Shown: piece after piece, positions 938 through 45,208 of the stretch | How positions within the stretch are numbered: the first letter of the stretch is position 1 | Layout: every line of letters begins with the position of its first letter | Source: Panopea generosa | Taxonomy: Eukaryota > Mollusca > Bivalvia > Adapedonta > Hiatellidae | Direction: 5' to 3' | NCBI GenBank assembly: GCA_029582155.1 | Contig: CM055901.1 | Location: 45,857,728-45,921,727 of the forward strand | Length of the DNA: 64,000 nt | The notes under the pieces: generated by a model | What the model saw: the letters and a program-made list of their open reading frames with translations, nothing else | What the model was told of the DNA's origin: nothing | Databases searched by the model: none | Translations under genes and position numbers: made by a program

Positions 938-18097
<17,160 letters not shown>

Positions 18098-19573
18098 AGG
18101 ATTAATATGGAATCTCTAATCATTTGAAAGAAGTTTGGAAGAATTAATACTAGTAATGAAGATGTACTTCATTCACTTTTAAACTTTCAATGGATAATGT
18201 TTAAATCCGAGGTTCCATAAAATGGTGCTTCGCAAAAATGACTTTTATTTATGATGTTGGTAGTGTTGATTTTTAGAATTGTCGAAAAACAACAACTCGC
18301 TTCATTTAGATTATTGTCGTATATTTGGTTTCTAACATAAGACTACGTTAAGTTAGATCCCTTGGTATGTTTCTTTTATTTGTTGTGTTTATATTGTAAT
18401 ATTTGTAACATTATTAATTGATGTTTTTAGAAAAGATATGCTTCATTGATTATGTTTATTGTTAGATATACTGTTGTGATACAGGTGTGCTTAGCTAATA
18501 TAACTATGATATGAGTATGCGTAGTTTACCAATGATGTTACTTAATACTTTTAACTTTTCCAATGTTACTTTAATAACGTATATATTGTTGGCTTTACTG
18601 ATACCGTAATGAAGAATGCGTACTTTGCTAAAACTGTTGCGAGATATGCATACTTTGTGAATTTCGGTGATACTATCGCGATGGGAATAACCGATACTTT
18701 AATGATAACTGTTTAGTTTGCTAATACACGTATATGCTGTGGATTTTAATACGGTGTGTACTTTACTGATACCGATAAGACAAATATGTAGTTTACTTTA
18801 GTGATGCTGCGGTAAATGTGTAATTTGCTAATACCTGTGCGATGCTTGTTTACACTGTGGTGTTTGGCGATACTGTTGCGATACATGTGTAGTTTGCTAA
18901 TTCTTATAATAATATATAGTTATGTTCGGCCACAGCATGACCCACTTAATGATTGCATTTATTTTCGAAGGGAGATATAAACAAAGTCACGCACACACGC
19001 AAACTCATACATAACGACATACGCATAGTCTGCATGACCGAACTCTTACCGTGGGATCAGAGCGAAAACTAAACATTCAATGGTAAATACATACATATGT
19101 ACCTGTGATATGTATTTAAGGGAAATAATTTGTAGGAAATACATATATGGTAAGAAAAATATGATGAGATGCAAGTGTTGTAATTAGCATTGATTTCTTA
19201 TATCATGTAGCTTACTGCAACAATTTACTTATTATTTCATCTTGTTTCGTACATTCGAAATGTTTGATAACATGTAATGATAACAGGTCCTTATCAGAGA
19301 AGAAAGATAGACATATATTACCAGTGCGCATATTCTTTAATATAAGAAATTTAACCAAACAGTCAACATGCAATAAATAGTGGAGTTCATTCATGACCAT
19401 ATCCAACACAAAGATTATATTGAACGGATATTATGTTTAGTATCTTGTTAACCTTTTTGTTGTGTATATTAAACAGTTTTACTTATACTATGTTTAACTC
19501 GTGTTGTGTTCATATGAAAGTCGTTTATTTAATAGAGAAGTTTGCCACACTGTTAATTGTTTCAACCTGACAA
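18098..19573. other. Intergenic: 3' end of channel gene to 3' end of lysozyme-lobe gene
   Basis: Convergent genes end on either side. From about 18400 to 18930 the DNA is a weak, degenerate repeat built on GTTGCGATACATGTGTAGTTTGCTAATA. No coding exon was recognised. Confidence 0.6.
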
Positions 19574-19929
19574 TTAACCTCTGCGTCCTGGCCAACAGTC
19601 CTCCTCCATCCTTTGCTGCAAATCTTCCATTATCTTTGCTAGTTCTTCTGCTCTTGCACGATTTCTTCTTCCCCAGTCGCTCTCTCTAATTATCCGAGCA
19701 GCAGTATTGTAGTTGTTTGATTTCATCCCATCAAACTGACGTTTGAATTCTACCGGACCGACATATATCATGAGTTTGATGAGGATGTATTTGGCCTCCG
19801 GATATATACAATCCCAAAAACCAACACCACCAACTCCAAGCCAGTCTTTGACAGCCTTTATTGCCGTCTTGATTTCCTGGTCGAGTAAGTGTCTCAGTGC
19901 TTTCAACTCGTCAGCACTGAGACATTTCT
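19574..19929 (-). CDS. Exon 10 of lysozyme-lobe gene: lobe module 5 and stop
   Basis: Residues 659-776. KCLSADELKALRHLLDQ, VKDWLGVGGVGFWDCIYPEA, LIKLMIYVGPVEFKRQFDGM, NNYNTAARIIRESDWGRRN. The whole module is in one exon, unlike modules 2 and 4. It ends with a charged tail (LQQRMEEDCWPGRRG) and a stop at 19574-19576. Confidence 0.87.
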
Positions 19930-21787
19930 CTGAAAAAAATATTTTATTGTTATATACATTCGAATTCGGTAACAGAATATAAAAAAATATAAATCAGTAA
20001 TACACACTTATGGTTACCTAAACTAAATGACTTCAATTTTTGTATGTAATTAGAAATTAAACTAGTTCCTTTTTGCACGAAACCCGAACATAATTGTTTG
20101 ATAGATTGAATATTTATTGTCTTTTTATGCCAAGATGGCTAACAGACGATAAGTTAACCTAGCGACTGTTTACTGGGATCCTGAAAGGTTATCCAATACT
20201 CTAGGACACCCTATCTTCGCAAGTAACTGACAACTTTCCCACTTAAATCATCGGTGAATGACGAATGATAATGAGACACAATGTCGCTCATCAATCATCA
20301 CGGAGACTGTTGCCGGGCGGGGGTTCGAACACACGACCAGGTTGTATGTAAGGAAGTTGCTTTTACGTGTATGAATTTAGTTGTCTTACAGTATGGGACT
20401 GCATATTGTTGTTATCCGTGTGTCGGTGAAACATACTCATATGTAAAGAAACAACCGGTTAAAGATGCATCGCCTGTAACTTTCTGTTCAGTAATGATGG
20501 AAATTTGTCGAACCACACAGAGGAATGTACCATTCGAAGATAATGATTAATTCCGTCCTTGTAGTTCATCTTATTTATGAGAAATTCGTAAATACACAAA
20601 GTCAAAGTTTTAGCATAACCCGATATTGGTCAATGCGTGACTTTATCACGTGTCACGATTTAGTATTTGATCAACAAAATTAAACAAAAACACTATAGAA
20701 ACAAAACGCAATGTAAGTTATTGAACAGAATATCAATAATATATGTTGTTTGATATAAATGTGCAGTTTTACTTGTAAGATAGATAATATCGGCGATATA
20801 GGTGGGGCCTTTTTAAATAAGTGATAACATCATGATACGATATGACTTGATTAAGTAGAAATACCACATACTTAATGCAAGCTCACAAAATCTCTTTGCC
20901 CAATCAGCTGCTTTATTTGGATTCTCCTTTGCCCAATCACTCCCCTCTATTGCTTTACCGGTGGCATCGTAATCTTTCTTCATCAAAGCATCCTATGTGA
21001 GCAATTTAAATGAATAAATATAAATAGATTCAACTGATAATGAGAAGAATGTTGCTTTTGTAATTTATATTCGACAAAATAACGTTTCATATTTCTAATA
21101 CAATTAAAACAGCATATTTCTAATTACACATTTGAATTTTATTCTTTGTTCTAAATAAAATAAGATTTAGGATTTCAACGGTAAAAATATTTCACATATA
21201 ATTGATTTTAAAATATTTGTTTTTCATAGCAAGGATGTATACCCAAATAAAAATGCACAATTACTGAAATGTTTTATAAAGACTGCGCAGTGACCCACTA
21301 AGATTTTTAAAAAAAGAAATCATCAAATGCTCATAAATACATGCAATGTGTTAAAATCCTATAAAAGTCGCCTTTTTTACATCAGTGATTTCTTATTGCA
21401 GTATATACTCTGCCAGCTTTTGTTCTACTCATCTGCAGCATAAAATCACAACCACTACGAACCATTTTGAAAATATTTCAAACCAAATTGCAGAGGACTA
21501 TTTTAAGCGCAAGAATCCTGTTACCGTGGCAGAAAGATATACTGCTGATAATTATTATGAGTAAAAATAATTCACATTTTCTTGCTTGTTCTTAAATCAT
21601 AACAAATCAAAACTAATGCAATTGCAATTTGTCATAAATGACAACAGCTGTTCGAAACATATAAAGGCACTGCATACACAATGGGGAAATTTTGTTTTTA
21701 ACTTTTGCATCGTATAAAAAAATAATATCAGAAATTGTGTTAAGCGAAAAGTATATTAAAATTGTCCCTTAAGTAATATTGTAAACT

Positions 21788-21830
<43 letters not shown>

Positions 21831-24800
21831 CAATTTAAGTTGTTTAGAACTGTTGTTTGAAGCATGTACCTTTAATCCAGGTATACTGTTCATGCCATTT
21901 TCTCCTAGTACTATCCACATTTCTATACAGATGCACTGAGCCTCGGGATCCAATGCCTTCCATGCGTCGGTTCCAAGCCATTTTCTCAGACCAAGTAATG
22001 CATCAATGGCTTTTTGTGCAGCAATCTTCCATAGTTTCAGTTTTTCGGTCTCAGACAAACACAAGTCTGTGTCAAAAATGATAAACATCGGAACCAAAAT
22101 CGTATATTCCGTAAGTCTATTTGACAATCACATGTGGTTTGTTTTCTGTATGGTTTTAGCAATTTTGGATTCATTTCGATGAACATTGCAAATATTATGA
22201 ATAAGTGTAGGTTTACATTTACGACGAGTTGTGTTGTGAAACGAACTAATAAGTTCATATACCAAAAAGTAAAAGAAGAGTTTTATCTATTCAGGTAATA
22301 ATCAGACGAATAAACGTGTTTGTTTTATTAGTTTTGCTTTATTTACGCATAATATGTAATATACAAGTACATTGTTTTCATACTGACCGTGACCGAGTGG
22401 TCTCAAGATCACTTACCTCGAACCGTTAAGGTCGAAGATTCGATTCTCGTTCGCTCCAAAAACCTTATGTTAGGACGTTTGCCAGTAATTAGCGAAAGGA
22501 CGGTGGTTCATTCTGATGTTGTCTTCACCAATAAAACTGGATATGCCAATTATAACATGAAATTTGTTAAAACAGCGTTAACCGCATTCAAATTAAAATA
22601 AACATGTGTAAGCAACATTATTGTCACCTAATTACCTTTAGGGATACAACACTTTCCACTTGGGCACCAAAACAGACAACGGGTCCCATCACATTCCTCA
22701 TCGTCCTGTTTACAGCTTCCACCACGTCTTTTACATTGCTTGTCATCAGCTGAAAGCGTCGGGAAAAATCTTTGTACATTTCTCTCTGCATTTTATTTTG
22801 TTAAAGAATACAGATGTTACGACTTTGTGCTATCCTATATATCCATGCTAGATAGTGTCTGATCGGGTAAATATTAAAAGACAAAGAAGGTCGATATGCA
22901 TAAAAGACAAAAGTAATTCAAGTGAATGACTAGTATGTCACTTTTAGTTTTGTATCTAGTTTATAACGTCCTTATATAATAACCGTATAGCCAGCATGAA
23001 ATAACTTACATATTGAACGTAACAGTAACATACCAAAGTACGCATAACCTCTACAATCTTTTTTCTACAAACTTAAACAAGTGCTACAACCATGTGTATA
23101 TTCACCTATGTTGATTTAAAACAGTTCAAGTTTGTTTATCAACTTTTATATTCAAACTTTAATGTTATAACACCACAATAATGTGAAGACGATGCTTTAC
23201 AATTCTACATCATTAAATCAATTGTTTGTTATACTGGAAGTACATTAACTTATAAACGTTGAATAACTTATATTTTAAGACATCTTAGTCGTCACTTTCT
23301 GACCATAGAGTATCTGTATTGCGTTCTCTAGACACATATACATGTATTTAAAACTATAAGTTTAAAAGTTTACTTGACAATATAGCAGTGCATGCTCCTA
23401 CCTGAGTTGACAGGTAAAGTCTTCATTCCTTCCTTCTGGAGTTTAGCTGCGATCTCTTCCCCCTTCACTGGATTTTTGCTGTACCAGGCGGATCCACGCA
23501 ATAGTCCAGCTGCAGCGACATAGTTTCCCTCTCTCATCTTCTCTAGAAACGTGATCAGCTTGCTTAGTTCTTCATCCATCATCAGCATCAGATCAATATA
23601 GCAAAAACGTACGACCTCTGGCAAACAATCCCATGACTCCTTATTAAGCAATTTCTTCGCCTTTTCCGCCGTCTTTTCCAGAATCGTTCTCACTTTCTTT
23701 ATCCATTCGAGTGCTTGCTCAGCATTTTTTTCTATAAGTTTATACAAACTTCGTAAACCCTCAATATGCAGTGGATCAGCGGTTTCGTGTTGTAAATGCA
23801 AATGACAACTATTGAGAACAAAGTTACCGTCTCAGACGGACATACCAGCCTTTTTTGGGTCAGTAAAAGACAGAACATGTCGTTATGGTCGAAAGCAGAC
23901 GGTTGTGATAGTCAACAGCAGAAAGCATATTCTGTTATGGTCAGTAACAGACAGAACGTGACCTTATGGTCGGTAGCAGACGGTTGTGATAGTCAGTAAC
24001 AGAATGTATATTCTGTTATGGTCAGTAACAGACAGAACGTGACCTTATGGTCGGTAGCAGACGGTTGTGATAGTCAGTAACAGAATGTATATTCTGTTAT
24101 GGTCAGTAACAGACAGAACGTGACCTTATGATCGGTAGCAGACGGTTGTGACAGTCAGCACAGAAGGCATATTCTGTTATGGTCAGTAACAGATAGAACG
24201 TGACCTTATGGTCGGTAGCAGACGGTTGTGATAGTCAGCAGCAGAAAGTATATTCTGTTATGGTCAGTTACAAACAGAATGTGCCGTTACGATCAATAGC
24301 AGCGGAAAGTATATTCTGTTATGGTCAATTATATACAGAACGTGCCGTTATCGTCAGTAGCAGACGTTTGTGATACACAGCAGCAGAAAGTATATCCGTT
24401 CTGGTCAGTAAAAGACAGCACGTGCCGTTACGATCAATAGCAGACGGTAATAATAGTCAGCAGCAGAGAGTATATACATTATGGTAAGTAACAGACAGAA
24501 CGTGCCGTTATGATCGGGAGCAGACGATTGAAATAGTCAGCAGCAGAGAGTATATACTATTATGGTAAGTAACAGACAGAACGTGCCGTTATGGTCGGTA
24601 GCAGACGGTTGTGATAGTCAGCAGCAGAGAGTATATACTTTTATGGTTAGTAACAGACAGAACGTTCCGTAATGGTCGGTAGCAGACGGCTGTGATAGTC
24701 AGCAGCAGAGAGTATATACTATTATGGTAAGTAACAGACGGAACGTGCCGTAATGGTCGGTAGCAGACGGCTGTGATAGTCAGCAACAGAGAGTATATAC

Positions 24801-26810
24801 TTTTATGGTAAGTAACAGACAGAACGTGCCATAATGGTCGGTAGCAGACAATTGAAATAGTCAGCAGCAGAGAGTATATACTATTATGGTAAGTAACAGA
24901 CAGAACGTGCCGTTATGGTCGGTAGCAGACGGCTGTGATAGTCAGCAGCAGAGAGTATATACTATTATGGTAAGTAACAGACAGAACGTTCCGTAATGGT
25001 CGGTAGCAGACAATTGAAATAGTCAGCAACAGAGAATATAAACTATTATGGTAAGTAACAGACAGAACGTTCCGTAATGGTCGGTAGCAGACGGTAATGA
25101 TAGTCAGCAACAGAGAGTATATACTATTATGGTAAGTAACAGACAGAACGTGCCGTTATGGTCGGTAGCAGACGGCTGTGATAGTCAGCAGCAGAGAGTA
25201 TATACTATTATGGTAAGTAACAGACAGAACGTGCCGTTATGGTCGGTAGCAGACGGCTGTGATAGTCAGCAGCAGAGAGTATATATTATTATGGTAAGTA
25301 ACAGACAGAACGTGCCGTTATAGTCGGTAGCAGACGGCTGTGATAGTCAGCAGCAGAGAATATATACTATTATGGTAAGTAACAGACAGAACGTTCCGTA
25401 ATGGTCGGTAGCAGACAATTGAAATAGTCAGCAACAGAGAATATATACTATTATGGTAAGTAACAGACAGAACGTTCCGTAATGGTCGGTAGCAGATGGT
25501 AATGATAGTCAGCAACAGAGAGTATATACTATTATGGTAAGTAACAGACAGAACGTGCCGTTATGGTCGGTAGCAGACGGCTGTGATAGTCAGCAGCAGA
25601 GAGTATATACTATTATGGTAAGTAACAGACAGAACGTGCCGTTATGGTCGGTAGCAGACGATTGAAATAGTCAGCAACAGAGAGTACATACTATTATGGT
25701 AAGTAACAGACAGAACGTGCCGTTATGGTCGGTAGCAGACGGTTGTGGTAGTCAGCAAAAGAGAGTATATACTATTATAGTAAGTAACAGACGGAACGTG
25801 CCGTTATGGTCGGTAGCTGACGGTTGTGATAGTCAGCAGCAGAGAGTATATACATTATGGTAAGTAACAGACAGAACGTGTCGTTATGGTCGGTAGCAGA
25901 CGATTGAAATAGTCAGCAACAGAGAGTATATACTATTATGGTAAGTAACAGACAGAACGTGCCGTTATGGTCGGTAGCAGACGATTGAAATAGTCAGCAA
26001 CAGAGAGTATATACTATTATGGTAAGTAACAGACAGAACGTGCCGTTATGGTCGGTAGCAGACGGTTGTGGTAGTCAGCAAAAGGGAGTATATACTATTA
26101 TAGTAAGTAACAGACAGAACGTGCCGTTATGGTCGGTAGCAGACGGTTGTGATAGTCAGCAGCAGAGCGTATACTCTGTTATGGTAAGTAACAGACAGAA
26201 CGTGACGTTACGAGCTAAAGCATACGATTGTGATAGTCATCAACAGAGAGTATATACTATTATGGTCTGTAACGGACATAACGGGTCGTTATAGTTGGTA
26301 GCAGACGGTTGTGATAGTCAGCAGCAGATGGCAATTATATTATTCATTATCAGTTACATATAGTTGTCATGGTCAGTAGCAGCAGGTTGATGTGGTCACT
26401 AGCAGATAGTTAATATGGACAATAGCAGACGATAGCGTTTAATTCCGATCAGCAAAAAGTGGTTTTGTTATGGTCGAAATCAGTCAAAATCAATTATTGA
26501 TAAATATTTGACGAAAATAAATATATGTCTTTCTCTCTCCGAGTTTTTACTATTCAAAACATTTAAACTAACCTCAATATAACTCATATCTGAGTATAAT
26601 AATTCCATTTTTAAAGATAATCTTATTAATTATAATATTTTTTATTACAAATGCATACGAACCATGGGCAAGGGCATCGAATTGTTTAGCAACCTGCGCA
26701 GCTTTCTCGGGGGTTCCCCCTACCCAGTCGCTGTTCCGTATGGCTTCAGAAACTGCCCCGTAGTCGTTGTTTTCTAAAGCTTCCTTTATGTTACAAAAGT
26801 AATCATAGAA

Positions 26811-26842
<32 letters not shown>

Positions 26843-28282
26843 AATAAAAAAAAAAAAAAAAAAAATAATAATAATAATAATTGTTACCAGTATAATAGTA
26901 ATTATAATAAAAATGATGATAAAGCAAAACAATAACCAACAAGACTTTATCTTACAAACTTTCTACATCACAAACGTTTCATATAAAACTTAGCACGATC
27001 TGTATCTCAACTACATGATCGAAACAATATTCTAATCTACCACGAATAAGTCCAAATTCTTAGGCACTATGTTGTCTTTTCTATTTCTCTGCATTGTCAA
27101 CTATTATCTAAATGCACGCACTTTAGACGGTGTCGGCATTTTTACACGGCAGTTTTAATGCATTTACATTTAACTCATTGTCTTTGAAAAATATGTATTT
27201 TTAACATTGTCCAGGGTGCTTTTAAAACTTGCTTAAATATAAATATTGGCGTATATCATTATCATTATGGGTTTGGTTATCATATAGTTCGTCGCCGATA
27301 CTTACTTTCTAAATTCTATTGAATTATTTTAAATAAATATATATGCATATATTATCTAAACTCTATTTCTGGCAGTATGTCAGCTATAATATACACCTAA
27401 TGTAATAATATTTTTGACCAAACTATCTTAACTTTAACGTAGTAATGGATCCAAGAATAAGCTCTCAAATTGATCTGAAAAGAGCATCACCGACTTGGAT
27501 AATCGAATTACAAATATTTGCATCATTTGGATGTGTCGTGAAAGAAGCAGTTATCTCCATTTTCATGTTTCTAAAATTTTTTTTTGCTTAATGAAATAGT
27601 ACATGACTTACTTAAAATCCAAAATATCTATTGAATGAGACATCTTTTTTTGATAAAATTGTGGTCCTTTTCCGTTTAATTTAAACACTTTTTAACAAGA
27701 TTAATTAAATATGTTTTGTTTTATTTCTTTGTTTCTTTTATGAAATGCTGATATAAACATCTGCATGATTATCATTCCTAACCTGCTGTTATGGACATGT
27801 TGATAATATCAACTATGATTTTCTGCACATATCTACATAGATAGTGTTTTATATGAATGAATGGTTGTCTCTAATATTTCTGTTTAGAAAAATACCGCGG
27901 CGTGGTCTAGTGGTAGAGCGTCCGCCTCGCATGCGGAAGGTCATGGGTTCAATCCCCGGCCGGGTCATACCAAAGACTTTTAAAATGGTACTAGAAGCTT
28001 CCTCGCTTGACGCTCAGCATTTAAAGGAGAGTTCTAGGTCTGGTCGGCCCGGTGTCAGTATAATGTGACTGGGTGTAGTATCATACCATGTGTCTGCGGC
28101 ATGATACTCCAGTGTGACAGCGCTTAGAATACTGTTTCAAGTAGACACCGTCGCGATATGACTGAAAAATTGTTGAAAGCGACGCTAAACACAATACAAC
28201 AACAACAACTGTTTAGAAAGGCAAATGTGGTTTTATAGTTTCTATGAGTGCAATATAATATACTGTTATACATGTAATGAGA

Positions 28283-28321
<39 letters not shown>

Positions 28322-31300
28322 CAATAGGATTTATGTTAATGTATTGAACAGTTCCGATCTAATATTTAAAGTCTAAGCAATCACTAATGAAACATCAGCT
28401 TTTGCACAAAACGATCTCGTCTTATTATGAACATAACAGTGTCAAACAATGAAGCAAACAGCATAACCTCGTCTGTATACGCATTTCCTATATACGGACA
28501 CGGGCTTTCTTTCGTTTTAAGCCAAATAACAGACCCTATTGATACTCTTGCCATATTACACACACACCTTTAATCCTGGAATGTTCCGTATATCTTCACC
28601 GAGTACAACATACATCTCAACTAATATGGCCCTAGCTTTAGGGTCTAGCTTATTCCACGTATCCGACCCCAGCCATTCGGTTAGAGCATCTATGGCATCG
28701 ACGACCTTCTGAGCGGCTCGCATGATCACTTCAAGCTCTTCCTCCTCGGAAAGGCAAACATCTGACAGAATTATACATTTAGATTATGATAATATTAATA
28801 ATAAATATATATTCCATCTGTTGATCGTTATCATCAATAATATAGATATCAGCTAAGCTTGTACAAAACGATGAGGTAAAAGAATAAAATGGCAAATAGG
28901 ATGATGATGATAATAAGAAAACGAGAAAAAGAAACCAATGATGAATAATGAAGAATGTTTATTTTTTTAAAGATTTTTGAAAGTGTAAACAATTTACATC
29001 ATCACCTGCTAAGGTGATAGCTTCGAATCCCGTTCGCTGCAAAAGCTTTATGTGAGAAAGTTTGCCAGTAACTTGCGATAGTTCTATACAGATGTATTCT
29101 GAGGTCTTCTTCCACAAATACAACTGGATATGCCATATATAACTTGAAATGTGTCGAAAAATGGGTAAACCACATTGCAAAACAACAACAAAGTTTAGTT
29201 TTCTTCTTTCCGTCTTCCTGTTTACTAAGCCGGGAGTATGGCTCTCTAGAACACTGATCAGATTTACGAATTTACGAAGTCTAAAGTTCCTGAGTGGTTT
29301 GGGTAGTAAATCATTCAGCATTGCATCAGCAATTTTACCTGCAGGTATGCAACATGCCCTGATGTTTGATCCAGGGGGGTGGGTTGCGCTCGAATTACTG
29401 GGATCGGTTGCCGCGCACCAGAAGATACAACGTGTTCCATCACAGTCTTCCACCCTGCACGTGCCACCGCGCTCCAGACACTGCGAATCATCAACTATGA
29501 AGTATCGTGGATTGTGTTAATCAGTATTAGCATGTCAGTAAAACGAGCCGCCATAAATTTACCTAAAATGTTTGTGAGTTTTGTTCATATATGTATATTA
29601 CAGACTACTTGATTATTTATGTGTGACATTGTGTCTTAATATCATTTGTCTCTCACCGCTTATTCAAATGGGAAAGGTATCAGTTACTTGCGGAGGTGGT
29701 GTGTGCTAAAGAACTGCTTAACCTTTCAGGTCCCCGGGAAACAGTGGTTAGGTTAACCGATCGTCTGTTAGTTCTCGATGACATAAAAATAACGCTCAGT
29801 ATTCAATCAATCAATCATAAACATATTGTATGGACATTAAAACCTCTGAATATTTATTTGGCAAACTACAGTAGAACTTCGATAGCTGGAACTCGGTTGG
29901 CTGGAACACCACCGATCGCTCGAACAACTAACCCGGTCCCTGCCAAATTCCTATTTAATTTCTATTGTTCTACCACCGATGGCCAGAACACTGATAGGTG
30001 GAACAGTCGAACTAGAAGTTAGGTCCCGCCAACACACTTACCTGTGTTTTTCGCACCTTTCGATCGAACAGCTAATCAAAGAGAAAATCGGAGAAGTTTG
30101 CCATGTTTGTTCACGAATTCAAAGGTGTGAAGTAATTTCTACACGTCATAATAATCCCACTGTCTTAAAGAGCGAGAAGTTTGTTATGATTATTTGGCGA
30201 GTGTGTTTATAATTGGTTACACGTTTACTTTAATTGTATACCGCATGTTTCATTAATTAAGTTAACTTGATTCCTAATTTGATGTTTACTGGTAATTTAA
30301 AATCAAAATAAAACCAATTTATATGGCAAACATTGAAAAGTAAAGAATGTCACATACAATTTTACCCTATAAATCTTAGACATGGGAAGTTCAGTTTCAT
30401 TGCACAATGTCACATTTACCTGAAGAAGAAATGGCTGAGCAACTTAGTGACGGACCCAGTAACCGGGGGATTACTAAGTCAGCCTCGTTGACGATTGCCG
30501 AGTAACTTAGTGAAGGACCCGGTAAAACCGGCGTGTGATTAACATGTCATTTACATTCTCACACACAACGAAAGCTAAATATAGCTATTTATATATGAAT
30601 ATATAAAATTATGATGATCAAAGGTAAATTAAGTAATTTTAGTGTAATACAATGAATTATATTTGGAAATTATCTTTTCTGGTGTATTGTTTTTTTCTAC
30701 ATAAACAAGAAATACACATCATTTACATCGGAGTTATATATTGCACCTGTTCAAAGCGTACACATGGGATTCAATAACACGCTCATCAGCGTACATGCAC
30801 GATGATTGTTGTACCAGGCTTAACTCGAACTACCGCTGACTTGAACTATTTTGTCCAGTCCCGTCCCGTCGAGCTCGAGCGATCGAAGTTCGACTTAACT
30901 GCTGTCTTTAGTGCTACATATACATAGATAATACGTAGATTATTGGCAAATGTGTATATTTAAATGTGATTTTCTCTTTGGAGAGGGTTGTTGCTAATGG
31001 TGTTAAAACCTATTTGCAATATACATATAAAATATAACTTTATTGTTATTATACATGTAATTGTATATAATAGATGCAATAAAATGTTATTAAATATTAT
31101 ATAATCGAGATCGGTATATCAGGCAGTTAGCCTGGTTATGTTCATCTGGAACTTCAGTCTCTTGACCATACCTGAATTTGTTGGATCTGTCGCTTGTCCT
31201 GCGCTTTCCAAATGTTTAGCAATTTCCTCACCCTTCTCTTCATTTTCGCTATACCAATCTGTTTCTCGCAGTACTGAGGCGGCTTCTACAAGGTTTTCAC

Positions 31301-33738
31301 TTTGAAGGGCAGCAAGAAATGCTTGTAGATCATCCATTGCTTCTTTTCCGGTCATTAACATCATTTCTATCAGGTCAAATCGGACATCCAATTGCAGGCA
31401 ATCCCAGACAGTTTTGTTTACCCACAACTCTTTAACATCACCAGCTGCTTCTTGCATCATGTCTGCAACTGTCTTAATTAGCTCTGGTAATGAGTCTGGT
31501 GCGTCGTCACTTGGGTCGCCTACAAGATGAAAATATGTATTATGATGCACTTTATAATAAACAATTGAATACAGCAGATTTTCTCTACGTTTAAAAAAAA
31601 GATTTTTTATTTGAAAAGGGTTTAACGCCAATTTCAACCCATTGCATGTTATATATGGCATATCCAGTTATATTGGTGCAGGAAGACCTCAGAATGAATC
31701 TGAAAAGAACCACTATCCTTCCGCAAGTAACTGGCAAACTTTCTCACAAAAGTTTTTGGAGTGAGAGGGAATCGAAGTTACGACCTCAACGATGAGAGGT
31801 AAAAAAAAAAAACAACAACAGATTTAATAACCTCGTAATAAGTGTTTTATACAACGAGACTACGACGTTGAAAAGTCGAAATAATTCGACTTTCATTATC
31901 GTAGTTTCGACTTTTCACCATCGTTTTTTTTTTTTTGGTTGTTTCGACTTTTCTTAATTTAATAAATATGTCGCGATGGCACCATAAGCACACCGTAACT
32001 GTTGATTTTCTTCTTAATATCAGTGACATGTGGTATACGTCACTGTTAATGTATCATTGACATGTGGTATACGTCTGTATTAATATATAGTATTGAACGA
32101 TTGCTCTTAATCACACAACACGGCTACGGTTGTCTGTTAAGACTAGTATCCTTCCGCATGTCGTGATAAGATATGTGTACCCAAGTAATGTCTCTATTGG
32201 TTATATATTTATGGAAAATGTTGATGTTTATAAATTGTGTATGTTAACAGTTAAAAAATAAGAAACCGATTGAATACCGCCCACTTACACAAAGTCGCAC
32301 TTTGTCAATTTTGCGCCAAACTTCAATACTTCATTTGACCTATTGCGGTAGCAAGGTAATCAGGTGATCGCATATTAGCACAGTGTGACACAATGCAGAA
32401 ACATGGTATACATTTCACATAAATTATCAAAATTTACAGTTCAGAAACCATACCAGAGAAAAAACATATTTTGGTAATTAATTTTATATTGACAAGCATC
32501 TCTATATCATATAAAGGAATAGTTAGGTTGATTACACGGTTTCAATAGTTTTGAACGTGCCATCTATGACATTGGCATAGAAATGGTGCATACAGGAGGC
32601 ACATGATATTATGTAATTAAGGCTGTGAGATGCATGTGAAACGAAAAGTGTTATTTTTCTTCTTGTTTCAAGGAATTTTTCGTGCTTAGACATAATGACT
32701 TTGATCGTGTTATATGTAGTTTGCATTTTTATGCCTATAGCTAATATTCTACATCAACACCTAAAAGTAAAATACAGAAAGAAAGCCATATTATGTCTTT
32801 TATGAGGATCGAATTTAAACCGGAAATGCCAGAGAGCACAAAATGTCAACTTTCCCAATTTTGATTATTCGAATAAGCCAGTTCAAGAACTTTTCCCAAA
32901 TAGTATATTTATATAACTACATGTAGTGTATAATTTTAGTAAAGTGCGGGTGTTAGAATGGAAGCCAGTGTAAATAACGCATTTTATAATGTATATGATA
33001 TTTACATCAACTATCCGATTTGGCCTGTTCAATGATAGTGTAAGTTTGTTGGTGAATGAAAACTGCGGATGATATAGTGCTTACAATGTCAAATAACACA
33101 TTTTATGTCAATATAAAGGCCACAATTTCCCCATTAATTACCCAATATAGGCAATTATAGAACTTTATATTATGGTAATATAACTATTGCGTAAGGTGCA
33201 TTTTTGACAATTCAATGTTCATAGCTCTGGTATTTACTATCCAATTTGGCAAGTTTAAGAACGTGCTGCTCTAGGTATTATTAGCATTAACGGCAGAAAT
33301 AACAACATCAACAGTAAAGAGAAATTGTGATTGCAATATCACTAACAAAAAGTAGCAGCAACACTACCATTAGTAGAATTAGTAGTTGTGTTAAGATAAC
33401 ATATATTCTATATACTTATTCCTATAATAAAAACAACGGGTACCTGACTGTCCCGAATCCTCGCCAGCGTCATCAGCTGCTGCGTCAACGGTGAACATAT
33501 CAAATTTGTCTTCAAATCTCTCCAGAGTAGATTTTACCATGTTAACATCGTCCGAAGAACAACAGCCATCTCCGATTCCAGTGTCAATCTTATCATCCAG
33601 ATCGTTGAGAAGATTTGTTATTTTGTCAAGTTTGCAGAACAAGGACTTCTTTGAGAACCTTGAGGATTTCATCGAACCAATGGCAATCGTTGAAGAAAAA
33701 CAGAAAACAAAAATATAAGCGGCACGTAGATATTTCAT
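19574..33738 (-). CDS. Secreted protein with five T4-type lysozyme C-lobe modules and two Cys-rich modules (10 exons, 776 aa)
   Basis: Minus-strand exons in order: 33738-33444, 31519-31172, 29494-29339, 28761-28568, 26783-26663, 23830-23402, 22749-22636, 22066-21870, 20992-20872, 19929-19574. All junctions are GT..AG and in phase, and the sum is exactly 777 codons including the stop. Order: signal peptide and linker; lobe module 1; Cys module 1; lobe 2 (two exons); lobe 3; Cys module 2; lobe 4 (two exons); lobe 5. Modules align without gaps to roughly residues 91-146 of T4 lysozyme (GH24, Pfam phage_lysozyme), including the I-x-M, G-x-x-G and S-R/D-W positions. The N-lobe with catalytic Glu11/Asp20 is absent everywhere. 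Bivalves are known to have phage-type lysozymes, but I know of no C-lobe-only tandem protein. Hydrolase activity is not expected. A binding or membrane-active defence role is inference. The least certain boundary is 23830. Confidence 0.85.
20112..20348 (-). mobile_element. tRNA-derived SINE, family B
   Basis: Read on the minus strand: GGTCGTGTGTTCGAACCCCC as B box, then GTCATTCACCGATGA.., AAAGTTGTCAGTTACTTGCG.., and the tail GGTTAACTTATCGTCTGTTAGCC. It is homologous to 35365-35590 (minus) and 29635-29830 (plus). It lies in the intron between exons 9 and 10. Confidence 0.7.
20872..20992 (-). CDS. Exon 9 of lysozyme-lobe gene: second half of lobe module 4
   Basis: Residues 619-658. DALMKKDYDATGKAIEGSDW, KENPNKAADWAKRFCELAL. 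Acceptor CATAG|GATGC, donor TTAA|GTATGT. Contains the S-D-W, P-N and A positions that match Ser136/Trp138/Pro143/Asn144/Ala146 of T4 lysozyme. Confidence 0.87.
21130..21535. mobile_element. Dispersed ~430-bp repeat, copy 2
   Basis: Colinear with 6690-7160 (see that entry). It sits in the intron between exons 8 and 9 of the lysozyme-lobe gene, in the same orientation on the plus strand. Confidence 0.75.
21788..21832. repeat. (CAG)n/(CAA)n microsatellite
   Basis: About 12 CAG and a few CAA triplets, in the intron 40 bp past the exon 8 donor. Confidence 0.96.
21870..22066 (-). CDS. Exon 8 of lysozyme-lobe gene: first half of lobe module 4
   Basis: Residues 553-618. DLCLSETEKLKLWKIAAQ, KWLGTDAWKALDPEAQCICI, EMWIVLGENGMNSIPGLK. 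The run from ALDPEAQC to GENG aligns without gaps to T4 lysozyme helix 92-110, sharing Leu, Asp, Cys97, Ile100, Met102, Gly107, Glu108 and Gly110. Donor AAG|GTACAT. A (CAG)n microsatellite lies 40 bp beyond the donor. Confidence 0.88.
22385..22605 (+). mobile_element. tRNA-derived SINE, family A, full-length
   Basis: Head GACCGAGTGGTCTCAAGATC with B box GAAGATTCGATTCTCG; body TTTGCCAGTAATTAGCG; tail CACCAATAAAACTGGATATGCC, ending in an A-rich stretch. It lies antisense in the intron between Cys module 2 and lobe module 4. A related copy sits in the equivalent intron at 28985-29192. Confidence 0.8.
22636..22749 (-). CDS. Exon 7 of lysozyme-lobe gene: Cys-rich module 2
   Basis: Residues 515-552. 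DDKQCKRRGGSC, ECDGTRCLFWC, GKCCIPK: spacing C-x6-C-x6-C-x4-C-x3-C-x4-CC. Seven cysteines, so at least one may be free or pair between modules. Basic N-terminal half (KRR). Same flanking phases (1-1) as Cys module 1. Confidence 0.85.
23402..23830 (-). CDS. Exon 6 of lysozyme-lobe gene: lobe module 3
   Basis: Residues 372-514. The module reads ADPLHIEGLRSLYKLI, NKESWDCLPEVVRFCYIDL, MLMMDEELSKLITFLEKM, GNYVAAAGLLRGSAWYSKNP and VKGEEIAAKL. The 3' end (TCAG|GTAGGA, phase 1) is firm. The acceptor GTCTGAG|AC at 23830 was chosen because it alone keeps phase with exon 5. It adds about 14 residues not seen in other modules and sits only ~20 bp from an 81-bp satellite array, so this edge is uncertain. 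Confidence 0.78.
23850..26305. repeat. 81-bp satellite array (~30 units) with 27-bp sub-repeats
   Basis: Unit: GGTAAGTAACAGACAGAACG, TGCCGTTATGGTCGGTAGCA, GACGGCTGTGATAGTCAGCA, GCAGAGAGTATATACTATTAT. Three diverged ~27-bp parts (GTAAGTAACAGAC, GTCGGTAGCAGAC, GTCAGCAGCAGA) show an older short repeat. Because 81 is divisible by 3, frames stay open on both strands, but this is intron DNA of the lysozyme-lobe gene. Degenerate edges extend to about 26450. Confidence 0.96.
26663..26783 (-). CDS. Exon 5 of lysozyme-lobe gene: second half of lobe module 2
   Basis: Residues 332-371. EALENNDYGAVSEAIRNSDW, then GGTPEKAAQVAKQFDALA. Exactly 121 bases, like its homologue at 20992-20872. Acceptor ATAAAG|GAAGC; donor CATG|GTTCGT is weaker than usual. 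A (GAT)n/(A)n/(AAT)n microsatellite lies just upstream on the minus strand. Confidence 0.85.
26808..26880. repeat. (GAT)n, (A)n and (AAT)n compound microsatellite
   Basis: Adjacent pure tracts just upstream, on the minus strand, of exon 5. The poly-Met, poly-His and poly-Tyr frames across it are artefacts. Confidence 0.96.
26900..27880. other. Intron of the lysozyme-lobe gene with no recognisable feature
   Basis: AT-rich sequence between exon 5 and the SINE at 27890. I see no exon, repeat family or RNA gene in it. Confidence 0.5.
27893..28210 (+). mobile_element. tRNA-Ala-headed SINE, family D
   Basis: The head has A box TGGTCTAGTGGTAGAGCG, an anticodon-arm-like CCGCCTCGCATGCGG (Ala CGC-like) and B box GGGTTCAATCCCCGG. 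The body runs on for about 240 bp and ends GAAAGCGACGCTAAACACAA then (CAA)n, a tail style common in bivalve SINEs. The acceptor stem is not paired, so it is not a working tRNA gene. Confidence 0.8.
28281..28321. repeat. (TAAA)n microsatellite
   Basis: About ten TAAA units downstream of the family D SINE. Confidence 0.96.
28568..28761 (-). CDS. Exon 4 of lysozyme-lobe gene: first half of lobe module 2
   Basis: Residues 267-331. Begins DVCLSEEEELEVIM, then WLGSDTWNKLDPKARAILVE, MYVVLGEDI and NIPGLK, ending in phase 0 at AAG|GTGTGT. It is nearly the same length and layout as the exon at 22066-21870. It corresponds to T4 lysozyme from about residue 59 to 120. Confidence 0.87.
28985..29192 (+). 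mobile_element. tRNA-derived SINE, family A, head degraded
   Basis: B box CTTCGAATCCCGTTCGC, body AAGTTTGCCAGTAACTTGCG, tail TCTGAGGTCTTCTTCCACAA, ACAACTGGATATGCC, ending (CAA)n. It lies between Cys module 1 and lobe module 2, the counterpart of the copy at 22385-22605. Confidence 0.7.
29339..29494 (-). CDS. Exon 3 of lysozyme-lobe gene: Cys-rich module 1
   Basis: Residues 215-266. Cysteines are arranged C-x6-C-x4-C-x4-C-x3-C, then a Ser/Thr/Pro insert (TDPSNSSATHPPGS) and a CC pair (ACCIPA). RGGTC and CDGTRCIFWC recur in the second Cys module. The pattern resembles small defensin- or knottin-like folds but matches no family that I can name. Confidence 0.8.
29635..29830 (+). mobile_element. 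tRNA-derived SINE, family B (3' part)
   Basis: Matches the inverse of 35365-35590: GGGAAAGGTATCAGTTACTTGCGGAG, CAGTGGTTAGGTTAACCGATC, TTAGTTCTCGATGACATAAA, ending (AATC)n. Confidence 0.65.
29868..30020. mobile_element. Degenerate relative of the TIR MITE
   Basis: Starts ACAGTAGAACTTCGATAGCTGG, close to the left TIR at 13163, with internal CTGGAACACCACCG and CCTATTT as in that copy. The right end is decayed. A further fragment with CTCGAGCGATCGAAGTTCGACTT ends near 30900. Confidence 0.55.
31172..31519 (-). CDS. Exon 2 of lysozyme-lobe gene: lobe module 1
   Basis: Residues 99-214, a whole module in one phase 1-1 exon. Landmarks: TVWDCL, FDLIEMMLMTGKEA, LQAFLAALQSENLVEAASVL, ETDWYSENEEKGEEIAKHL. 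An ungapped comparison with the T4 lysozyme C-lobe gives about 16 identities in 58 positions, including W-Y of helix 137-141. It ends with a short linker TDPTNS. Confidence 0.88.
31650..31800 (-). mobile_element. tRNA-derived SINE, family A
   Basis: Inverse orientation: CATATCCAGTTATATTGGTG, AGGAAGACCTCAGAATGAATC, AGTAACTGGCAAACTTTCTC, then an inverted B box ATCGAAGTTACGACCTC. It lies in intron 1 of the lysozyme-lobe gene, just upstream (minus sense) of exon 2. Confidence 0.75.
31810..33390. other. Intron 1 of the lysozyme-lobe gene, no clear feature
   Basis: AT-rich. A short inverted motif GAAAAGTCGAAA/TTTCGACTTTTC occurs around 31869-31954. Nothing else was recognised between the SINE and exon 1. 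Confidence 0.5.
33444..33738 (-). CDS. Exon 1 of lysozyme-lobe gene: signal peptide and acidic linker
   Basis: Residues 1-98. ATG at 33738, with a hydrophobic signal (LRAAYIFVFCFSSTIAIG) and probable cleavage near residue 20. It is followed by a heptad-like stretch (LDKITNLLNDLDDKI), a CC pair (GDGCCSS) and an acidic end (DAAADDAGEDSGQS). The donor CAG|GTACCC leaves phase 1, as do all module borders in this gene. No known domain recognised. Confidence 0.85.
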
Positions 33739-37956: not shown

Positions 37957-40900
37957 GACGAAAGAAATATCATAATAATAAATATTTACGGTTCAAATAA
38001 CGATGATCCATCGGTGATAAAAAATTAGACAATTTCATATTAGAAAACGAAGAACACGATTTTATTATAGGTGGTGATTTTAATGCTATACTAGATGTTG
38101 AGTTAGATAAAAAGAATGGTCGTGCCAATACTCATAACAAATGTAGAAGTAAGTTAACGTCTTTAATTGACACATACTCTCTCTCCGATTTTTGGAGACA
38201 GCAGCATCCATCAAAGCGTCAATATACATGGCATTCAAATACTTCACCACCGATCTTTTGTCGATTAGATTATTTTCTTGTTTCGAATAATATTTCAAAT
38301 TGCATAACATCTAGTTGCATAAAAACTAGTTATAAATCGGATTATTCAATTGTTACAGTTTCTATTGACCTAGTACGTAAACCTAGAGGACCTGGATATT
38401 TTAAATTAAACAATAGTCTTTTATTACAAACAGATTACCAAGAAATAATTCGAAAAAACATTACTGAGATAGCTACAATAAATAATGAAGCAACCCCAAA
38501 TGTTCTTTGGGATATCATTAAAGGTGTTATAAGAAATGAAACCATTAAATATGCTTCTAAAAAAAAAACAGAATTAAAAAAATGAAAAACAACTATATTC
38601 AGACATTGAAAAAATTGAATCAAACATTGGAAATAAGTGTAATCAAAAAGAAAATGAATTAAAAAAAGAATTAGATCAAAAGAAAAATGAGCTTAACAAT
38701 ATACAGGAAACAAAACTAAACGGAATTATCTGAAGATCAAAGTCAGAAAAAGTTGAATATGATGAAAAAAAAATCAAAATACTTTGCAAGTCTTGAAAAA
38801 AAAAAGATCAGAAGCTAAAATCATATCTAGGTTAAATGTAAATGGACAAAGTATTATGAATACAAATGCTATTTTAAATGCTCAGAAATTATTTTATACA
38901 AAATTATACACTAAAAAGAATTCAACCTACTCTAATATTAACTTTTTTAACCTATCTATGCCAAAATTGAATGAAATTGAAAAGCAAAAATGTGAAGGTT
39001 CTTTAACAGAATATGAATGTGCATGTGCCTTAAAAGAAATGAAAAATTGTAAAAGTCCTGGTTCAGATGGTATTAGAGCTGAATTTTTGTAAAATATTTT
39101 GGAATGATATAAAACTTTTTCTTATCAACTCTTTGAATTATTCTTTTAATCACGGTCAGTTAAATGAAATGCAAAAACAAAGTTATATTACACTATTACC
39201 TAAAACAGGAAAAGATACAGCAAATCTAGAGAATTGGAGACCAATTAGTCCCCTTAATACAGATTATAAAATTGCAACCAAAGCCATTGCAAACAGAGTC
39301 AAATTAATTTTAAATTCTATAATAAATAATAGTCAAACTGGATTTATTAAAGGAAGGTATATTGGTGAAAACATAAGGCTCTTATTTGAAATTTTGGATT
39401 ATGTAGAGGAAGAAAATATACCAGCACTATTATTTTTCTCTGATTTTGAAAAGGCTTTCGATAGCCTTAGCCATACCTTTTTAATTGACGTTTTAAAACA
39501 CTTTAACTTTGGCAACACCTTGATAAGATGGGTAGGATTATTTTATAAAGACGCCAAAAGTAGTGTTATAAATAATGGTCATGCAACTGATTTTTCCCTA
39601 TACAAAAAGGTGTTCGACAAGGCTGTCCACTATCGCCTTATCTCTTTATTATTTGCATTGAGTTGTTGTCGTTTGAAATTGTAAATAACAAAAATATTAA
39701 AGGAATACACATGGCAGGTTTAGATATAAAAAAATACATTTTTTGCAGATGATGCGACTTTCGTCACCGATGGATCAAAACAATCATTTGAAAACTTAAT
39801 TAATATACTTGATTCGTTTAGTTATGTATCTGGGTTAAAACTCAACCCCTCGAAATGTAACATATTAAAAGCCGGTTCATTGAAAAATACACGTATAAAA
39901 TACTCCGAAGAAAAGAAATTCTGTTGGTCATCAGATAAGGCAAAAGCATTGGGAATGGTTTTTAGTACACAAAAACAAGATATTTTTAAACTTAATCTGG
40001 CTCCTAAAATAGAAGAATTCAAAAACTGTATTAAAAACTGGCAGCATAGAAAATTAACACTACTTGGTAAAAATTACAGTGCTAAAAACGTTTGCTCTCC
40101 CCAAACTAATTTACCCATTAACAGTTTTACCAAACACTCCAAAAGACACAATAAAACATTTATCGAATATATGTATAAATTTATATGGAACAATAAACCG
40201 AGTAAAATAAAACGATCTACACTTATACGACAATTTGAGGAGAGGGGGGGGGGGGGGGGGACTTAAAATTCATATTTTCTCTTAAAGCAAGTTGGATCAA
40301 GCGAATTACGAACAATAGCACAGGACTATGGAAAAATATATATCTAAATCAATTAAAACATTATGGTGGTAACCTAATTTTTGAATGTGATATAAATTGT
40401 ACTGATATAAATAACTTATTTCCAAAAAACGCTTTTCTCCAAAATATTTTAACTGCATGGAGGACAATATGTAAAGATGATACGTCTGAAAATATAAGTA
40501 AATGTGTTATTTGGAATAATTCGAATTTGAAAATAAGCAACAAAACAGTTTTTTTTTACAAAGGATGGTTTGACAAAGGGGTAAAATATATTGAACATAT
40601 ATATGATTATAGATTGAAAACGTTTTACACTTTTGACTACTTTTCATACTTATATGATATACCAAGAACAGATTATCTCAAGTATTTATCACTGATATCG
40701 TGTATTCCAAAACACTTTAAAGCTAAACTAAAAGACGAATAACCAAATTGTTAAACAATCTCTTCTAGATAGAATAAAACAGTCTAAACATGTCAATAAA
40801 ATGTTATACAATTATCAACTTCATAAGGAACCTACCTACATAAACACACAACAACAAAAATGGGAAAAAGAATTTCAAGATGCAATTATTGACTGGAAAC

Positions 40901-43040: not shown

Positions 43041-43106
43041 GCATATTTCCTTATCTGAAAGTGCTGACCTACTTGCAGGTCACTTCGACGGTACTTACTT
43101 TCCACA

Positions 43107-45208
43107 ATGGCTGTCTTCAGAAGATTGCTATTTACTGCTTGTGTGTATTTATTAAGTTCTACACCAACTTCAGCCTTTCTCGAATCATTTTTTGGTCACC
43201 ATGGCGATAAAAGTAATCCGGATGTATTTTGCATTATGGAACACTGTGGAAGCCAGTCAGCTGCGTGTATGGCAGACGCTTCGTGCAGAAGTAACATGGA
43301 ATGTATGACCAAATGCGGGTTGACCAACCACAGCTGCATGTATAAATGTATGAATACTTACGAGGATAAAATATTTGACGCCATGATGAAGTGCTTGGTT
43401 GACGATTTCCACTGTCTGACACTGGAACCTCCAGACCCGTCTTTCCGGTGCAAACCTCCAAGTATGATCGTTAAGAATTTTACAATGCCACAACTGACCG
43501 GGCCTTGGTACATAGTCCGAGGTCTCAACCGGGACTACGACTGTTTTGACTGCCAGATTTCAACATACGCACCGGAGAAAACGTCTAAGAATTATACCGT
43601 GAGTGAGAGATACGACGTGGTGATGTTAAACGGGACAACCCGGCATCGTGTAAATGTCCAGCAGGTTCAGCAGACGGATCCAACAAACGGCGGCATGTTG
43701 GACTACACGAACGTCATCATGGGGCTGACAATGTACGAGAAATGGCAGGTCCTCGGTGAGTAATAGATATATTAATTATTAAAATCCTGATACGCACATT
43801 TGGTTTACACGTTACGTGGAACATTGTTATCACGTTTGTTTACCATGATTAAATTACATATATATCTTAAAGTTTAAAAGGTTAAATGTATTTCATGAAT
43901 AAAACAGTATTGGTTGTTTGCACCTTTGAATGATTTTGAAAGCATCCACAACACACTTTTTTTTTCATTTTAAGTATTTGGTTTAACGCCATTTTCAACA
44001 CATGCCACGTTATAATATGCATATCCAGTTTTATTGGTGGAGGAAGACATAATGAATCTATAAGTAGAACGGCCGTCCTCCCGCTTGTAACATTTATCAT
44101 ATAAGTTACGGACCGATCGTGGGTGTAGGCCGCTGTGCTGCAAACCTCCCATAGATTTAAAAAATAGCCAACTTTAATCAGTTCGGTATTCGTGTTTCTT
44201 TCATTGATATTACTAACTACTCAACCGTCAGCATTGAAGAGTTACGCAATATCAAAAGACGAAAAGACAAATGTCAAGATAACTACTTTTTAACTTTTAT
44301 TGTTTCCTGATATACAGATGATAAAAATGTTCTTCCAAAAACGTCATTGTTTCATTAATAAACATATGTACACTTTATCATTTGGTGAAGAACATGTTAA
44401 CCCAAACCCGGCAATGAGAGGCGTTAACTAGATCCATGCGACTGTATTCCTTCATATTTCTCGTCAGATCACGCTGCCGGCGTTAACTAGATCCATGCGA
44501 CTGTATTCCTTCATATTTCTCGTCAGATCACGCTGCCGGCGTTAACTAGATCCATGCGACTGTATTCCTGCATATTTCTCGCCAGATCACGCGGCCGACG
44601 TTAACTAGATCCATGTGACTTTATTCCTTCTATTTCTCGCCAGATCACGCGGCCGACGTTTACTAGATACATGTGACTGTATTCCTTCATAGTTCTCGCC
44701 AGATCACGCGGCCAACGTTAACTGGAATCATGTGACTGTAATCCTTCATATGTCTCGCCAGATCACGCGACTGACGCAAACTGGATCCATGTGACAGTAT
44801 TCCTTCATATTTCCCGCAAGATCCGCGGCCGACGTTAACTAGATCCATTTTACTGTAGTCCTTCATATTTCTCGCCAGATCATGTGGCCGACATTAGCTA
44901 GATTCATGTGACTGTATTCCTTCGTATTTCTCATTAGATCTCGCGACCGACGTTAACGAGAACCACGTGACTGTATTTCTTCATATTTCTTGTCAGATTT
45001 CGCCGCAGACGGTAACTATATGATCGTGTACTACTGTGGACAGATGACCAAGGACTGGTGGTATGAAGGGAACCTAGTCTACTGCCGGGACCCTGTCCTT
45101 GGACCCCTTGATCTCTCTGATATCGCCACGTTCTTGCAACGGACAATGGGGCACACGATGGACCAATATTGCGTTCCCAACACGAAAAACTGCCAAACTG
45201 GAGTGTAG
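43107..45208 (+). CDS. Violaxanthin de-epoxidase-like secreted protein (2 exons, 286 aa)
   Basis: Exons 43107-43755 and 44997-45208, joined in phase 1 (CTCG|GTGAGT .. TTGTCAG|ATTTC). Residues 1-23 are a signal peptide (RLLFTACVYLLSS). A Cys-rich domain follows (DVFCIMEHCGSQSAACM, CRSNMECMTKCGL, CMYKC, MKCLVDDFHC), then the lipocalin-like VDE domain with KNFTMPQLTGPWYIVRGLN, DCFDCQISTYAPE, MYEKWQVL, YMIVYYCGQMTKDWWYEGNL, VYCRDP, and a C-terminal CVPNTKNC. Block order and spacing match plant VDE, which in chloroplasts de-epoxidises xanthophylls in an ascorbate-dependent reaction. An animal protein would act outside the cell, and its substrate is unknown. Three N-glycosylation sequons (NFT, NYT, NGT). 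The intron carries a 59-bp array copied from its own 3' splice site. Confidence 0.9.
43975..44155 (-). mobile_element. tRNA-derived SINE, family A (partial)
   Basis: TTTAACGCCATTTTCAACACATG, CATATCCAGTTTTATTGGTGG, AGGAAGACATAATGAATC. The tRNA head side is decayed. It lies in the intron of the de-epoxidase-like gene. Confidence 0.65.
44423..44996 (+). repeat. 59-bp satellite made of copies of a 3' splice site
   Basis: Nine full units starting GTTAACTAGATCCATGTGAC, TGTATTCCTTCATATTTCTC, GCCAGATCACGCGGCCGAC. The final copy is the real acceptor (ACTGTATTTCTTCATATTTC, TTGTCAG) and the first bases of exon 2 (ATTTCGCCGCAGACGGTAAC), which match ATCACGCTGCCGGCGTTAAC of the unit. Confidence 0.93.

Follow-up and report, generated by a model that had tools for sequence, protein, structure and literature searches.

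Five phage-lysozyme C-lobes without a detectable catalytic lobe, arrayed with two cysteine-rich modules, in a predicted protein of Panopea generosa

What might an animal protein do that carries five copies of the C-lobe of a phage-type (GH24) lysozyme and no detectable catalytic lobe? The question is raised by a gene in the 64-kb window analysed here (i.e. the whole stretch of DNA, C8:45857728-45921727), for which an initial annotation had proposed ten phase-consistent exons. These were reproduced in our manual splice model, in which the gene, on the minus strand, opens with an ATG at 33738 and a hydrophobic leader and ends with a stop codon at 19574, its ten exons joining in phase across nine introns (GT-AG in 9/9). 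The leader was judged hydrophobic from hydropathy alone; between 19000 and 34500 the same strand holds 14 leader-like ATG frames, among which that of exon 1 was picked because it reaches a phase-compatible donor. The donor of exon 9 chosen initially gave a stop at the join with exon 10 and was rejected in favour of a GTATGT donor lying 15 nt beyond it, which is in frame. Under the splice model used, the product has 770 residues, and exons 1 to 10 likely encode one single protein.

The order of its parts is a leader and N-terminal region, M1, C1, M2, M3, C2, M4 and M5 (M, C-lobe module; C, cysteine-rich module), a repeat pattern of M-C-M, M-C-M, M. Exon 1 (33444..33738, minus strand, like all exons) contributes the ATG, the leader and an N-terminal region with three cysteines past the leader (residues 1–98). 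Three C-lobe modules occupy single exons: M1 is encoded by exon 2 (31172..31519; residues 99–214, phase 1-1), M3 by exon 6 (23402..23808, with the 5′ end at 23808 or 23731; residues 373–508) and M5, together with the stop, by exon 10 (19574..19929; residues 653–770). The other two are each interrupted by a phase-0 intron at an identical place in the module alignment, M2 (residues 267–372) being divided between exon 4 (28568..28761) and exon 5 (26659..26783, with the 3′ end at 26659 or 26663) and M4 (residues 547–652) between exon 8 (21870..22066) and exon 9 (20872..20992). The cysteine-rich modules, recognized by their cysteine spacing, correspond to exon 3 (C1; 29339..29494, residues 215–266, phase 1-1) and exon 7 (C2; 22636..22749, residues 509–546, phase 1-1). 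An AATAAA hexamer resembling a polyadenylation signal lies 44 nt past the stop (19524..19529, minus strand). Most of intron 5 consists of an 81-bp minisatellite of about 30 copies (23858..26328), and intron 4 contains a tRNA-Ala(cgc)-like sequence (27895–27966, plus strand) that is perhaps the head of a SINE. In the five pairs of module copies compared, pS was 0.76–0.86 (saturated) and pN 0.24–0.48; between M1 and M3, M2 and M4, and C1 and C2, pN was 0.24–0.39 with pS of 0.76–0.86. Saturated pS combined with low pN indicates that the reading frames have long been maintained by selection.

Homology of the modules to the C-lobe of GH24 lysozymes, as first annotated, was borne out by two approaches. 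Searched alone against the PDB with phmmer, M4 found T4 lysozyme residues 74–147 as its top match (E = 3e-4 with a mutant and 0.02 with the wild type), and 58 of the best 60 of 417 matches at E up to 10 were lysozymes or endolysins, the other two being helicase HrpB (E = 0.018). A profile of all five modules placed T4 lysozyme first, with E values of 2.6e-9 to 1.6e-7 among the best 60 of 578 matches, of which 59 were named lysozyme or endolysin and one 'Artificial protein L056'; in nearly all of these 60 it covered T4 lysozyme residues 62–153 at most. We also compared the modules by hhalign with a GH24 profile of 17 sequences, namely 12 phage lysozyme regions (11 of the 40 matches listed, of 1739 records, and one M4 match from annotated phages), four of five IMG/VR loci (L030, a partial match, was left out) and the complete GH24 lysozyme encoded in this same genome, hereafter the host GH24. 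The five modules together scored 98.4% (E = 6e-15) and singly 93.2% (M1), 95.7% (M2), 95.1% (M3), 97.2% (M4) and 95.8% (M5), against at most 2.7% for 60 column shuffles and 0.5% for the reversed module alignment; a rotated alignment is no control, because local alignment still picks up the true part. A convergent helical fold without homology was rejected on the basis of the PDB profile search and of hhalign against the GH24 profile.

The residue matches to T4 lysozyme that had been listed for M4 agree with the phmmer alignment. The range given for the homology, T4 lysozyme residues 91–146, falls inside the one found here, which is longer, starting at about residue 59 in the GH24 profile comparison and extending over about 59–153. 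The alignment is free of gaps, as had been claimed, for M4 against T4 lysozyme over 91–146 but not for the other modules; relative to M4, M1 has one extra residue in the module alignment, M2 and M3 have one fewer, and M5 has three more and three fewer. Within the window, the five-module profile matched seven of 2027 six-frame open frames, all inside the gene and being those from which the profile was built, and the GH24 profile recovered five of these seven module-bearing frames at E 0.1, missing the first halves of M2 and M4.

Neither the full protein nor any of the five modules matched PF00959 in a Pfam search, even at E 10, while the host GH24, as control, scored 38.8 bits, above the gathering cut-off of 22.3; NCBIfam gave no GH24 match for M4 or M5. 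PHROG 13211, a model of 887 positions for a baseplate hub and tail lysozyme, matched M1, M2, M3 and M5 only near its C-terminus (positions 824–885; E = 3e-4 to 0.03) and did not match M4. Against annotated phages, M4 matched 326 records (E ≤ 1), the best 20 having a lowest E of 4e-3 and all less than 60% identity. Scans sensitive to close relatives only yielded 66 pattern matches for M5 in prokaryote contigs and four for M4 in viral contigs, none of either being confirmed. One further phage family, phrog_33534 (94 positions, unknown function), matches the C-lobe only of GH24 (host GH24 residues 114–175, E = 5e-12; M5, E = 0.006) and could represent a split endolysin or a phage protein consisting of the C-lobe alone.

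The modules share with the C-terminal lobe of T4 lysozyme (part of PF00959) a sequence homology over residues ~59–153, but they have no N-lobe, lack Glu11, Asp20 and Thr26, and go unseen by Pfam. Glu11, Asp20 and Thr26 are the catalytic residues of T4 lysozyme, and the initial annotation had already reported the lobe with Glu11 and Asp20 as missing; the aligned region of the modules begins at the inter-lobe helix, and a profile of the N-lobe built from the same GH24 rows found no window match better than E 2.3, against 2.8e-21 for the host GH24 as control. The catalytic motif was absent from the 64-kb window and, in a search of the window, the host GH24 locus and 50 kb of C10, was found only in the host GH24. 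Helix A of T4 lysozyme packs on the C-lobe, and it has no clear counterpart in the modules. A man-made protein offers a partial parallel: the module profile matches residues 25–110 of the 121 of 5i14 ('mutated and truncated T4 lysozyme'), a construct known here from the PDB match listing alone and unlike the modules in being artificial. At the level of sequence, the locus is shown to encode an array in which five GH24 C-lobes are accompanied by two cysteine-rich modules and no catalytic lobe is detectable.

Which parts of the lobe have been kept was assessed by comparing the 17 GH24 rows with the five modules, in T4 numbering transferred via RB69. W138 is found in 17/17 rows and 5/5 modules, and G107 in 17/17 and 4/5. 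Three further positions invariant in the 17 rows vary conservatively in the modules: M102 (M in three, L in two), S136 (S in four, T in one) and R145 (K in four, R in one, hence basic in 5/5). In contrast, F104 (16/17 rows) reads L/V/L/I/I in M1 to M5, F114 (17/17) L/I/L/I/F, D70 (15/17) M/K/I/K/E and Q141 (15/17) E/G/K/E/R. F104 and Q105 of T4 lysozyme have a role in substrate contact. It seems that the C-lobe fold has been kept and the ancestral ligand side has not.

We favour, with a probability of about one half, the interpretation that the gene encodes a secreted, non-enzymatic, multivalent extracellular binder that arose from a GH24 C-lobe and grew as a [C-lobe]-[Cys]-[C-lobe] unit was duplicated. 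Given the sequence homology, the gene would descend from a phage-type lysozyme whose catalytic N-lobe was lost and whose helical C-lobe, beginning with the inter-lobe helix, was kept as an autonomous module. A unit of single-exon C-lobe, cysteine-rich repeat and two-exon C-lobe would then have been duplicated in tandem, as the exon layout and the tree suggest, with a fifth C-lobe closing the protein. Five C-lobes and two beta-defensin-like repeats could provide multivalent extracellular binding in immunity or mucus, the ligand face having presumably been remodelled in each copy. The binding function is deduced from non-catalysis, repetition and the leader.

Among the alternatives, a peptidoglycan-binding protein or lysozyme decoy, both raised in the initial annotation, is unlikely but fares best; here the C-lobes would still hold the stem peptide in the manner of T4 lysozyme, tethering the protein to bacteria, or would titrate bacterial lysozyme inhibitors. 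The C-lobe homology itself and the retention of W138 and of a basic residue at 145 in all five modules are consistent with it, as is the bivalve fusion of GH24 to PGRP described in PMC5303276. Against it stands the replacement of the near-invariant F104, D70 and Q141 in 5/5 modules, and of F114 in 4/5, so that peptidoglycan binding in the ancestral mode is weakened.

Distinctly unlikely is that the model joins two genes, exons 1–5 (M1-C1-M2) and exons 6–10 (M3-C2-M4-M5), with the minisatellite between them. The junction of exons 5 and 6 is the sole ambiguous one found in the model: at least two in-phase site pairs exist, giving by arithmetic on exon lengths 770 or 743 residues, and the 743-residue alternative brings phase 1 to every inter-module boundary. 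The 776 residues previously reported are neither proven nor excluded. In favour of two genes, an AATAAA occurs 12 nt past the end of exon 5, whose open frame continues to a stop at 26574. However, exon 6 offers no ATG ahead of its module within its open frame, so that an earlier exon is required, and phase-compatible sites exist for one gene; the leader-like ATG frames between the two exons are at 26279 and 25689, inside the array, and at 23878, in another frame.

The phylogeny of the modules is in keeping with growth by duplication of a compound unit. They form one clade against the 17 GH24 rows (support 98/97), within which M1 pairs with M3 (96/89) and M2 with M4 (100/98), as expected if the M-C-M unit was duplicated. 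A pairing of M4 with M5 was rejected (p-AU = 0.013), whereas a group of M2, M4 and M5 was not (p-AU = 0.146). As to origin, the free tree places the modules beside lysozymes of Pelagibacter phages (93/94, not starred), but a clade of the modules with the host GH24 was not rejected either (p-AU = 0.237).

Without its first 20 residues, the protein has a pI of 4.8 and a net charge of −36, and the modules M1 to M5 carry −19, −11, +4, −2 and +4. For comparison, the C-lobe has a net charge of about +6 in the host GH24, about +9 in RB69 and about −7 in the lysozyme of phage HTVC119P; in the light of this last value, acidity is not peculiar to the C-lobe array protein. We give little credence to an acidic protein of a structural or matrix kind (shell, mucus) that would use the C-lobe only as a stable helical bead, a role with which the acidity, leader, repetitiveness and cysteine content would agree, together with the replacement of several near-invariant GH24 positions.

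The presence of interleaved cysteine-rich modules, part of the original description, was upheld, and their number is two. Counting six cysteines, the spacing is C-x6-C-x4-C-x8-C-x20-CC in C1 and C-x6-C-x6-C-x8-C-x4-CC in C2; with the first cysteine of the next exon included, each module has eight. C1 and C2 share 67% identity across 36 codons. A regular expression for the cysteine spacing hit three open frames in the window (C1, C2 and one simple-repeat cysteine run), and a C1 + C2 profile gave a third, weak window match outside the gene (4897–5010, plus strand, E = 0.005). Pfam returned no match for C1 or C2, and NCBIfam none for C2. Against the PDB (E up to 10), C2 had three weak matches, of which two were to toxin-like peptides; knottin-like PDB matches of the cysteine module (E = 0.044 and 0.26) were not accepted.

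A close parallel is with rusticalin, whose repeats (Cx6Cx6-7Cx8Cx7CC) are described as resembling beta-defensins and the tick carboxypeptidase inhibitor (PMC6339383). Repeats of this type occur fused to cell-wall hydrolases, including, in eukaryotes, phage-lysozyme domains, which PMC7379824 reports for 26 of 124 proteins having recognized domains; a placozoan GH23 lysozyme is also preceded by cysteine-rich repeats (PMC12855814). The spacing in C1 and C2 is close to that of rusticalin-type repeats (PMC6339383, PMC7379824), but differs by an extra cysteine pair and by a gap before CC that is shorter (C2) or longer (C1), and here the repeats sit between C-lobes and the lytic domain is incomplete. 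The form had been called unfamiliar in the initial annotation; this no longer applies to the combination of cysteine-rich repeat and phage-lysozyme domain, already described in PMC7379824, but does apply to the C-lobe-only tandem, of which we found no report in the open-licence literature.

It is very improbable that the cysteine-rich repeats are the active part, as in the tick carboxypeptidase inhibitor, with the C-lobes as spacers: the spacing is close to that of the rusticalin repeats likened to this inhibitor (PMC6339383), but there are two cysteine modules against five C-lobes, and the inhibitor is absent from the three matches that C2 has in the PDB up to E 10. Least credible is a non-enzymatic, cationic, membrane-active antimicrobial, for which the terminal helix of the C-lobe and the defensin-like repeats would be the active parts; the initial annotation had contemplated a non-enzymatic antimicrobial. 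Positive charge of the C-terminal helix is described as important for the activity of several endolysins (PMC11929351), and, despite the near match of the cysteine modules to rusticalin spacing and the net +4 of M3 and M5, the whole protein is acidic. Moreover, the helix equivalent to T4 lysozyme 143–155 (helices picked by hand) carries −3, 0, +1, +1 and 0 in M1 to M5, compared with +5 for RB69 and +4 for the host GH24.

A multivalent binder of the kind preferred here would sit beside known bivalve co-opted phage lysozymes (BCPLs), with which the gene shares GH24 ancestry, an animal host, introns, duplications and fusions; BCPLs are, however, reported as lysozymes in PMC5303276, one of them, HcLyso1, with measured lytic activity, whereas the gene described here has C-lobes only, five per protein, and no catalytic residues. 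Phage lysozymes borrowed by animals are known as enzymes; here, once the catalytic lobe had disappeared, the other lobe has seemingly been retained and multiplied, in what seems a clean case of an enzyme half turned into a non-catalytic repeat domain. The array also offers a test, set up by nature, of whether the C-lobe of T4 lysozyme, so familiar from folding studies, can function by itself in binding. More tentatively, and as something we consider rather doubtful, it may represent a new animal protein family in which the substrate-side lobe of a horizontally acquired phage lysozyme was freed as the repeat of a multivalent binder, possibly with a capture separate from that of the catalytic GH24 of the host. 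As PF00959 is blind to the modules, we suggest that Pfam-based surveys of phage-derived animal genes can miss such remnants.

Related loci were sought by querying the genome (1.47 Gb) with M1, M4, M5, C2, the host GH24 and PF00959, M2, M3, C1 and exon 1 being left out; all counts are lower bounds. PF00959 had at least one match (C8:11658442-11658822, E = 7.8e-7). The host GH24, a gene of the kind known from heterodont and palaeoheterodont bivalves (PMC5303276), is a 188-codon open frame with a leader, in which the residues equivalent to Glu11, Asp20 and Thr26 are present and whose best phage matches are to phage C48C1 (45%) and Pelagibacter phages (43%). It lies at 1444–2010 of its extracted locus (L001; C8:11656942-11660322) as one open frame, its coding part being apparently intronless; the bivalve GH24 genes studied in PMC5303276 are described as having at least one intron each. 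Outside the window, the module and cysteine queries found at E up to 1, again as a lower bound, only C10:47847920-47852078 (L022, L005, L011), where a cysteine-module exon, an M4-like exon and an M5-like exon follow in the same order and on the same strand. Because each of these exons carries one in-frame stop, this locus is probably a copy of the C-lobe gene that has decayed.

Two other features of the window lie on the plus strand. A LINE-like element, in pieces, with endonuclease and reverse transcriptase domains occupies 38007–39678. At 43068–43757 an open frame combines a leader with the lipocalin domain of violaxanthin de-epoxidase (VDE, PF07137; E = 2.3e-34), an enzyme family of plants and algae, and is the one match of this kind that the genome yielded, again a lower bound. 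In the Manila clam genome, VDE is listed among five reductase families seen only there, of four mollusc genomes (PMC5499747).
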